Source: Thermolongibacillus altinsuensis
GTDB lineage: Bacteria; Bacillota; Bacilli; Bacillales; Anoxybacillaceae
Direction of reading: 5' to 3'
Assembly (NCBI RefSeq): GCF_004341205.1
Contig: NZ_SLUL01000008.1
Coordinates: 1-64,000 of the forward strand
Length of the DNA: 64,000 nucleotides
Part shown: piece after piece, positions 30,679 through 39,366 of the stretch
How positions within the stretch are numbered: the first letter of the stretch is position 1
How the letters are laid out: every line of letters starts with the position of its first letter
The notes under the pieces: model-generated
Seen by the model: only the letters and a program-made list of their open reading frames with translations
Told to the model about the DNA's origin: nothing
Databases searched by the model: none
Made by a program: the position numbers and the translations under genes

Positions 30679-33601
30679 TTATAATCCGCATTTCAACTGC
30701 GCACCGCAGCTTGTGCATGTGTTGCATCCGCCGATTTCTTCAACGGTTCCCTCGCGGCAAACCGGACAAATGTTGCCGACTTCTGAACCGATCGTCACAT
30801 CCGTAGCACGCAAGTCTTGAATCGTATCAACGAGAACGACCGGGCGTTTTTCGTTTGTTTCTTCAGGAAGAAGCTCAAGCTGCTCTTCTACGGTGTTTTC
30901 TTCCGCTTTTAGCGTCAATACTTGCGCATCCCGGCTTCCATCGACATAAACCGTTCCGCCTTTTGCGCCGCCTTTCCATAGACGCTCGTACACTTTTTGG
31001 ACTTGCTCAACCGTATAACCTTTCGGAGCGTTAACGGTTTTCGAAAGGCTTGAGTCTACCCAACGTTGAATGATGCATTGCACATCCGCATGCGCTTCCG
31101 GCGATAAATCCATCGCTGTAACAAACCAAGGCGGCAAGTTGTTTGGATCCGCTTCTGGATGTTTGTCCAAATATTCTTGGACAATGTCCGCCTTCACTTC
31201 AATAAATTTGCCGAGTCGACCGCTTCGGTAGTAAGAGAAGGAGAAGTATGGTTCAAGTCCTGTAGACACGCCGACCATTGTCCCAGTGGAACCTGTCGGA
31301 GCCACGGTCAGCAAGTGTGAGTTGCGAATGCCATATTTTAAAATATCTTGGCGAATATCTTCAGGCATTCTTTTCATATAGCCTGTGTTAATGAACGCTT
31401 CACGTAATTTTCGTGTTTCTTCTTCCGTTTGGCCGATGAGGAATGGGAAGCTGCCTTTTTCCTTCGCCAGTTCAATCGATGCGCGATAGGCAGTGGTCGC
31501 AATCGTTTTAAACAATTCGTCGACAAGTTTATTTCCTTCTTCCGAACCGTACACTTTTTCGCAATAAATCAACAAGTCCGCCAATCCCATGACGCCTAAG
31601 CCGATTCGGCGTTCGCCAAGCGCTTGTTTTCTATTTTCTTCAAGGAAATAAGGTGTCGCATCAATCACATTATCTTGCATTCTTACACCAATTTCGACTG
31701 TCCGCTTTAATTTTTCATAGTCGACAACTTTCTTTTCTTTGTCAACCATATTCGCTAAGTTGATCGCTGCCAAGTTGCATACAGAATATGGTGGAAGTGG
31801 TTGTTCACCGCACGGATTGGTTGCGACAACCTTTTGTCCGTACGCTCGTGCGTTCGTCATTTCGTTGGCGTTGTCGATAAAGAAGATCCCCGGTTCAGCC
31901 GAATACGTTGCGCAAATGTTGATAAGTTTCCAAAGCTCCCTTGCGCGGATTTTGCGGTAAACGCGAACGCGATAACCCATCTTTTCCCATTCGCGCACAT
32001 CGCCAACTTCATGCCATTTTTCGTTGTAAATGCGCATTTCTTCTTCTGAATACGTTTCTACATCCGGGAAGCGCAGTTCATATTCTTTATCCTCTTCGAC
32101 CGCCTGCATAAACTCTTTCGTCAAGCAAACGGAAATGTTCGCGCCTGTTAAAAAGTCCGGATTGTGCACGCTGTATGTGCCGCCTGTGCGCAATTTTTCT
32201 TCGGCTTCTTTAATAATTTTCTCGGTGAAGCCGCCGTAGCCCGGCACGTTTTTATAATTTACAATCGCTTGGTACATCTCTCGTTCTTGTTCGGTTAGCG
32301 GCGTAAATTTCAGCTTATCTTGAGCAGCTTTTTTAATCGCTTCATCTTCCATGTTTTCAATCAAATAACGTAAAATACGCGGATTTTGCATTTTTGAAAT
32401 GATAAACTCAATAATGTCCGGATGCCAGTCCGCCAGCATGATCATTTGAGCGCCACGCTATTTGTTACTCACTCGTCATTCGAGTGGGCTAGGTCATTTC
32501 TGCCTAGCTCTCATGCTTTCGCATGAGATCGGACTATATCATCAAAGAGTGAAACACTCTTTGTCTCGCGCTCTATAACGACGTTACCGTTCGTTATAGT
32601 CTACTCCTTCCTTAGCCATAAGCCTTAGGAAGTTTCGATAGTCTCTGAACCTTCATCTCCGTTTCCAGAGATGCTTGGCTGCTGGTCGCCCATTGTTGCA
32701 TCCAACTTGTTTTTAAACCGTCACGCTTGCCGTCACCGGCTACGTTGTGGTCAAGTTGGCTTTAGGGGGTTCCAGCAATTCGCGAGATTTTACTCCCGCC
32801 GATGGCGCTACGTTAACGGGAGCCACCTTGTTCAACAAGATGGGTTAATTTAGCAATGTCATCAAGCCATGAGACGGACCCGGACGATTTGCCGTTCACT
32901 CCGCGCGCTAACGTGTTGCGTGGACGCAGCGTTGAACCGTTTGTGCCGACGCCGCCGCCGCGGCTCATAATTTCCATGACTTGTTTCCGATGCTCAGAAA
33001 TTCCTTCGCGCGAATCTTTTACAAACGGCATCACATAGCAGTTAAAATACGTCACTTCCGTACCTGAACCGGCACCGTATAAAACGCGTCCCGCTGGAAC
33101 GAAATTCAAACTGACCAGTTCTTGATAAAACTTTTCAAACCATTCTTTTCGCTTTTCTTCTGTTTTTTCAACTGCCGCTAATCCGGTTGCGTTTCGCTTC
33201 GCAATTTGTTCATAAAAAATTTCCAATGGTTTTTCAATGACGTCAAGCGAGCGGACAACAAGGCCTGTTTCCGCCTCTTCACCTTCAAGCACATTTCGGT
33301 ACTCTTCTTCAACAAGCACCTTTGCTTTTTTTTGCTCCCAATCAAGCTCGACAATAAATCCTAGACCGCGAGCTGGAAACTTCGGATCTTCCTTCACCGT
33401 TAAGACAACAAAATCACCGACGCTTAACGTTAATTTTTCCGTATCTTTAAACGCATAGCGGTCAAGCATCACTAAACGAGAAACGCCTTTAAATGTGATA
33501 TGCATATCCGCTGTAATCGGGTGTACTTGCGGAAAAAGGCGAATATCCTCGTTTAATTTTTCAATGTTTACTTTCATTTTTTCAGAAAACGCAACCGTCA
33601 T
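30679..33601 (-). CDS. nrdJ: Adenosylcobalamin-dependent (class II) ribonucleotide reductase, intron-split
   Basis: Two exons, 32816-33601 (262 codons) and 30679-32457 (592 codons plus stop), join to an 854-aa class II reductase that makes deoxynucleotides without oxygen. Exon 1 ends in VEQGGSR and exon 2 starts RGAQM, restoring the conserved GGSRRGAQM. Exon 1 carries TYFNCYVMPF; exon 2 has NPCGEQPLPPYSVCNL and VAPTGSTGTM, and ends with a Cys-rich tail (CPVCREGTVEEIGGCNTCTS). Without splicing exon 1 terminates at a TAA directly after GGSR. B. subtilis has a class Ib enzyme instead. nrdJ, splB and the coiled-coil gene occupy a position between lipM and mntR that is empty in B. subtilis. NrdR-like boxes lie upstream. 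Confidence 0.93.
32458..32815 (-). ncRNA. Self-splicing group I intron in nrdJ
   Basis: This 358-nt insertion interrupts nrdJ in a conserved codon context. The 5' exon end CUCCCGU pairs perfectly with an internal guide GCGGGAG (32793-32799), with the expected U-G pair at the 5' splice site (P1). The intron ends in G (AACAAATAG), the omega-G. Core elements are recognisable: TTCAGAGACTAT and the later GATATAGTCC form P7; CCAACTTG/CAAGTTGG forms a P5-type stem; CAAAGAGTG/CACTCTTTG a P8-type stem; CTCATGCGAAAGCATGAG is a GNRA-capped P9-type hairpin. There is no open frame for a homing endonuclease. Subtype assignment is not attempted. Confidence 0.9.
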
Positions 33602-33678: not shown

Positions 33679-33723
33679 TCAATATATAGTATGATTTTTT
33701 TAAAAAACCATACTATATATTGA
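33679..33723. promoter_or_regulatory. Paired NrdR-like boxes upstream of nrdJ
   Basis: Two arms of a perfect 15-bp inverted repeat, TCAATATATAGTATG (33679-33693) and CATACTATATATTGA (33709-33723), each resemble the NrdR box (ACACTATATATTGT type). Their centres are 30 bases apart, about three helical turns, the usual NrdR spacing. The gene 78 bases downstream is a ribonucleotide reductase, the classic NrdR target. The same sequence followed by TTTTTTG on the minus strand could also end lipM transcription. Confidence 0.5.
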
Positions 33724-39200: not shown

Positions 39201-39366
39201 TCACCTGAAAGTTTCCCTATGTTGCCATAGGTTTTCCTCGTGGGTGGTTCACGTTCGTGAACGCTCTCCAGAGCCGCGTCAAACAAGAGTTCTTTTGCCT
39301 GAGAGATTCGCCCAACGGCTTGCTCCTTCGGCGCTACAAAATTGTAGTCTCTCCCCTTGTTCTCAT
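39184..39366 (-). ncRNA. Tandem glycine riboswitch
   Basis: Two aptamers are visible on the minus strand. Aptamer 1 runs from GGGGAGAGAC through GCGCCGAAGGAGCAAGCC to AATCTCTCAGGCAAAAGAAC. Aptamer 2 runs from CTCTGGAGAGCG through ACCACCCACGAGG to CTTTCAGGTGAAAGGACAGAG. The paired conserved GAGAG/CTCTCAGGC features, followed by a terminator and gcvT, identify the gcv switch, which activates glycine cleavage when glycine is high. Confidence 0.93.

Follow-up and report, generated by a model that had tools for sequence, protein, structure and literature searches.

Our analysis confirms that nrdJ, the class II ribonucleotide reductase gene of the thermophilic bacillus Thermolongibacillus altinsuensis, is split by a group I intron that lacks an endonuclease. 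The element is very probably a self-splicing intron of the IA type and a post-mobile derivative, deleted for its endonuclease, that stands at a late stage of the homing cycle. It lies within the window, by which we mean the whole stretch of 64,000 nucleotides that was analyzed. When positions 32458-32815 are excised in silico, a single open frame of 854 aa plus a stop codon results, with the junction between both Arg codons of the GGSR-RGAQM motif, exactly where a preliminary description of this DNA had placed the insertion. The joined NrdJ contains both ribonucleotide reductase domains by Pfam (PF02867, E 1e-114). Given the in-frame stop, NrdJ made from unspliced RNA would end after Arg-262, leaving a 262-residue fragment. 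Intact exons on both sides, a precise and conserved intron boundary, and covarying stems rule out reading the split gene as an artefact or a pseudogene. In the annotation of carrier genomes nrdJ appears broken, yet the gene is very likely functional.

The preliminary description had tied its group I assignment to a covariance-model match. The Rfam model RF00028 aligns over its full length (model positions 1-253) with window positions 32856-32510, scoring 82.1 bits (E 2.4e-19) against a curated cut-off of 50 bits. Folded with short flanking exons, the intron has a minimum free energy 7.1 SD below that of dinucleotide shuffles (z -7.1). Three further details of the description are borne out: an internal guide (GCGGGAGU) base-pairs with the last nucleotides of the 5' exon (GCUCCCGU) in an 8-bp P1 with U.G at the splice site, the last nucleotide of the intron is G, and there is no endonuclease gene, the longest sense frame of the intron being 49 aa.

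To assess the fold, the stems proposed for the window copy (17 plus P10) were projected onto an alignment of 38 distinct same-site introns. All 17 stems and P10 are paired in 82-100% of cells. Pairing reaches 100% in P3, P4, P5b, P5c, P6, and P9.1; it is 96-99% in P1, P5, P5a, P5b0, P6a, P7, P8, and P9 and 82-89% in P7.1, P7.2, P9.2, and P10. The catalytic core (P3, P4, P6, P7, and P8) lies at 96-100%, and the P7-, P8-, and P9-type elements that had been read from the sequence earlier are paired in 98, 96, and 98% of cells, respectively. Sliding the partners by 1 to 3 nt leaves only 0-77% pairing, a comparison that carries some bias toward the proposed stems, which were derived from one member, and that draws on related and hence non-independent introns. 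Changes on both sides of a stem are found in P1, P3, P5a, P5b0, P5c, P6, P6a, P7.1, P7.2, P8, P9, P9.1, P9.2, and P10. The guide also tracks the exon across same-site introns, with the exon/guide combinations GCUCCCGU/GCGGGAGU, GAUCCCGU/GCGGGAUU, and GAAGUCGU/GCGACUUA. In 38/38 same-site introns, position -1 is U, the intron ends in G, and its first codon is an in-frame stop.

We judge the intron to belong to subgroup IA by its anatomy, namely P7.1 and P7.2 between the 5' strand of P7 and the 3' strand of P3, rather than by a subgroup model. From these sequence features we infer that the nrdJ intron splices. The 5' exon would pair with the internal guide to form P1, guanosine would attack after the splice-site U, a chemistry taken from established group I biology, and the 3' exon would dock via P10. 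Ligation of the exons would then restore the Arg-Arg pair, and full-length NrdJ could be translated. The features of the locus are collected in the table, together with the states of the intron across the host's family.

Table. The split nrdJ locus in window coordinates and intron states in the host's family
Feature	Position	Strand	Remarks
nrdJ exon 1	32816..33601	-	codons 1-262, ends GGC TCC CGT; in-frame joining, Pfam
nrdJ exon 2	30679..32457	-	from CGT GGC GCT to stop codon; in-frame joining
Group I intron, 358 nt	32458..32815	-	RF00028; boundaries identical in 18 family genomes
In-frame stop TAA, first intron codon	32813..32815	-	stop in 38/38 same-site introns
P1	32793..32822	-	5' exon 32816-32822 x guide 32793-32799; 97% of cells paired; guide-exon covariation
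P3	32564..32787	-	32781-32787 x 32564-32570; 100% paired, 38 introns; compensatory changes
P4	32679..32778	-	32772-32778 x 32679-32685, around P5 extension 32689-32767; 100% paired
P6/P6a	32649..32679	-	99-100% paired
P7	32532..32643	-	32639-32643 x 32532-32536; 98% paired
P7.1 and P7.2 (subgroup IA element)	32573..32632	-	89% and 85% paired; start region of the endonuclease gene in relatives
P8, 9 bp, 3-nt loop	32543..32563	-	96% paired; location of the LAGLIDADG gene in relatives
P9, P9.1, P9.2	32470..32527	-	98, 100, 87% paired
P10, 3' exon side	32450..32457	-	x intron 32800-32808; 82% of cells paired vs 25-61% slid
Glycine riboswitch aptamer	39277..39366	-	RF00504, 70.4 bits
Family introns, endonuclease intact			G023, G006, G027
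Family intron, endonuclease C-terminus truncated			G019
Family introns, internal deletions			G039 (644 nt), G015 (466 nt), G031 (441 nt), G005 (414 nt)
Family introns, leader kept, gene gone			G035, G011
Compact family introns, 348-358 nt			G000 (window genome), G014, G004, G008, G025, G032, G022, G028

The preliminary description had proposed that the locus be compared in related genomes for intron-less alleles. Among 41 genomes of the host's family, all with nrdJ, 18 share the insertion down to the nucleotide and 23 are intron-less; a wider set of 397 genomes from the order yielded further introns, 28 of which were extracted and verified in nrdJ. Gene-carrying same-site introns of the family are 1198-1220 nt long. 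Their endonuclease has two LAGLIDADG motifs, YLVGYILGDG and FLRGVFDADG (Pfam LAGLIDADG_3), and its gene starts in the P7.1/P7.2 region, has its body in the P8 loop, and ends mostly at a TAG within P7'. Eleven further introns of >1100 nt were extracted from genomes outside the family, where they occupy three insertion points. The endonuclease dN/dS is 0.07-0.13 in 9/10 pairs and 0.55 in one close pair. The earlier alternative that the intron must be either immobile or mobilized in trans is incomplete: in same-site relatives the LAGLIDADG gene in P8 is intact, decayed, or deleted, and the lineage was most likely once mobile in cis.

Introns of the same lineage are also present 3 nt downstream of the site, after CGTCGT (L214, L216, and L220), and 6 nt downstream, after CGTGGT (L194, L197, L199, L201, and L222). 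At both of these points the preceding codon always ends in T. Guides of the +3 introns fit the new 5' exon, and those of the +6 introns, compared by eye, do so with one mismatch. A few codons further downstream, at LAD-WHP, a different intron occurs in L195, L198, L202, L209, L213, L222, L225, L226, and L217, so that some nrdJ genes have two introns with an exon of roughly 20-30 nt between them.

The intron belongs to a widespread Bacillales lineage that occupies exactly this site and in whose members P8 can hold the gene for a LAGLIDADG homing endonuclease. We propose that the window copy most likely descends from an endonuclease-bearing ancestor and that the gene and its leader have been lost. 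Apparently retained mainly because nrdJ RNA has to be spliced, the copy would represent a late step in the homing cycle. In the intron-core tree, in which several deep branches are weakly resolved and the endonuclease-state labels change many times, the 8 compact family introns form one clade (99/98) with the window copy inside it, nested in a clade of 19 (100/97) with endonuclease-bearing and decayed introns. The position of the compact clade, surrounded by carriers and decayed copies, is why we read the window copy as a loss: by parsimony and this nesting, it is most likely that the clade once had the gene. It is conceivable that the window intron never held an endonuclease and keeps the ancestral compact form, with sister introns acquiring the gene in their P8 at a later time. 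Such a history would suit the occurrence of compact introns in several clades, and no clear trace of coding sequence is seen in the window copy apart from what the RNA structure requires. We nevertheless consider it distinctly unlikely, since the nesting of the compact clade among carriers argues against it, as do the partially deleted introns, which indicate the direction of change, and the endonuclease genes at the three nearby sites, which are homologs of 50-96% identity, share one location within the intron, and follow the intron core (r of 0.69 between endonuclease and intron-core distances, with 0/5000 permutations as high). Loss of the gene thus remains the preferred reading. Caveats to it are the weakly resolved deep branches and hints, from segment comparisons, of mixing between the 5' and 3' halves of the introns. 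In the nrdJ exon tree, the exons flanking the window copy fall together with the exons of two further compact-intron genomes (96/84), in agreement with vertical descent.

Across the nrdJ exon tree as a whole, at least 10 switches between intron-bearing and intron-less states are required, counting well-supported branches only, and near-identical genes can differ in this respect. The decayed-intron genome G031 and the intron-less G013 differ at 5/1110 exon nt and, within 90 nt of the site, only at position -1. Compact-intron G032 and intron-less G010 differ at 23/1110 exon positions; 8 of these differences fall no more than 9 nt from the site, a cluster that suggests replacement of a short tract. 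At the splice-site Arg codon, 18/18 carriers have CGT, and 23/23 intron-less alleles of the family have CGC or CGG. This absence of CGT has modest weight because the family genomes are related and only 14/80 other intron-less Bacillales alleles have CGT at that codon. Precise loss would leave CGT, which no intron-less family allele has; along with the exon tree changes and the near-identical pairs, this pattern in the alleles speaks less for precise loss than for DNA exchange that led to either gain or allele replacement, two outcomes between which it does not discriminate. Recoding of the intron-less alleles for endonuclease resistance is not claimed, the synonymous diversity of the site being at about the 80th percentile (Ser/Arg/Leu codons).

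The same observations bear on whether an endonuclease-free intron is still mobile, either via a trans-acting endonuclease or by recombination of imported DNA. Its patchy presence on the exon tree, the clustering of G032/G010 differences at the site, and the retention of CGT by 0/23 intron-less alleles would all be expected of a mobile element, but intron-less DNA replacing intron-bearing alleles gives the same patterns, and the nearest relatives of the window copy fit vertical descent. In addition, no close endonuclease homolog was found in the host genome or in the viral, phage, and plasmid collections, and continued mobility seems to us unlikely. The only LAGLIDADG gene found in the host genome, on contig C6, is about 32% identical to the subfamily, so that mobilization in trans from within the genome itself is unlikely, while from outside it is conceivable. 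This contig C6 gene (L181, 1501-2487) is a free-standing ORF of 328 aa that begins with MEGV like the intron-encoded ones and adjoins a tyrosine-recombinase-like ORF. Searches of phage and plasmid DNA with the intron returned core-level matches only, none over 80% of the query; in endonuclease protein searches of the phage and plasmid collections all matches were below 60% identity, the top-ranked at 33%, and viral contigs gave no match to the close subfamily. With no carrier of the close subfamily found in these collections, a phage or plasmid vector for the intron was rejected. A broader picture is possible, though doubtful: one bacterial chromosomal intron lineage would pass through the whole homing cycle at one nrdJ nucleotide, its guide re-aimed 3 and 6 nt downstream with the homologous endonuclease kept, and its endonuclease-free copies might yet pass from one species to another through gene conversion.

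The preliminary description took splicing to be compulsory for dNTP synthesis by this enzyme. Splicing is needed for NrdJ, but as regards dNTP supply its importance is overstated, as contig C15 encodes a second large subunit (PF02867) and a small subunit (PF00268), that is, NrdAB; loss of splicing would therefore cost the cell NrdJ and not all dNTP synthesis. Upstream of nrdJ lies an NrdR-box-like pair (window positions 33680-33722; CAATATATAGT ... ACTATATATTG). The full pair, with a spacing of about 32 nt, is present in 15/18 carriers; G008 has one site, and G032 and G023 have neither. These boxes suggest that nrdJ is under ordinary transcriptional control by NrdR.

Retention of the intron could also be ascribed to regulation, with splicing adjusting NrdJ output to temperature, guanosine, or growth state. 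With a stop opening 38/38 same-site introns, unspliced RNA would yield nothing but the short N-terminal fragment, and the title of a paper in the reference list of PMC3984707 calls the flagellin introns of thermophilic Bacillus temperature dependent. However, the stop could equally well serve to prevent ribosomes from entering the ribozyme, NrdAB is available to the host, and 23/41 relatives do without the intron, some of them near-identical to carriers in nrdJ. Regulation is accordingly a very improbable reason for retention, although splicing may conceivably play some regulatory part, and retention through the need to splice is the explanation we prefer.

As an element the intron is ordinary in kind, and its relatives form a clean one-site series of empty, intact, decaying, leader-only, and fully compact states. 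Near-identical intron-plus and intron-less nrdJ pairs, such as G031/G013, make gain versus loss testable in bacilli, and the same series makes it testable what retains an intron once its endonuclease is gone. Neither the nrdJ-site intron nor the series was found in the open literature searched. RNRdb reports more than 100 curated group I introns among its RNR entries, and the nrdJ intron may be catalogued there.

Group I introns of Firmicutes and their phages are known from Bacillus recA, nrdE, and nrdF and from phages Twort and SP-beta (PMC3984707, PMC3653736). These are likewise ribozymes in conserved genes of nucleotide metabolism, with or without endonuclease genes. Whereas the recA, nrdE, and nrdF introns interrupt recA or genes for class I enzymes, the intron described here is in class II nrdJ, and the endonuclease of its relatives is of the LAGLIDADG type. 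The RIR gene of Nostoc punctiforme also has a group I intron, which differs in having an inserted IS element, according to the title of the paper (Meng et al. 2007, cited in PMC12702839). Closer to the host are the group I introns in the flagellin gene of Geobacillus stearothermophilus (Hayakawa and Ishizuka, as cited in PMC3984707); the core of flagellin introns is related to that of the nrdJ intron, while gene, site, and guide differ. The host genome has a flagellin intron of its own (L002, 1501-1870, contig C11), which scores 72.1 bits with RF00028, lies between RDVD and MAKEM, and has no endonuclease-sized ORF. It is 73% identical to the nrdJ intron over intron positions 35-177. Finally, the homing cycle of introns with endonucleases, in the Goddard and Burt model as summarized in PMC1654191, comprises the same range of states at a single site, from empty through intact and decayed to endonuclease-free, although the model was formulated on other elements.
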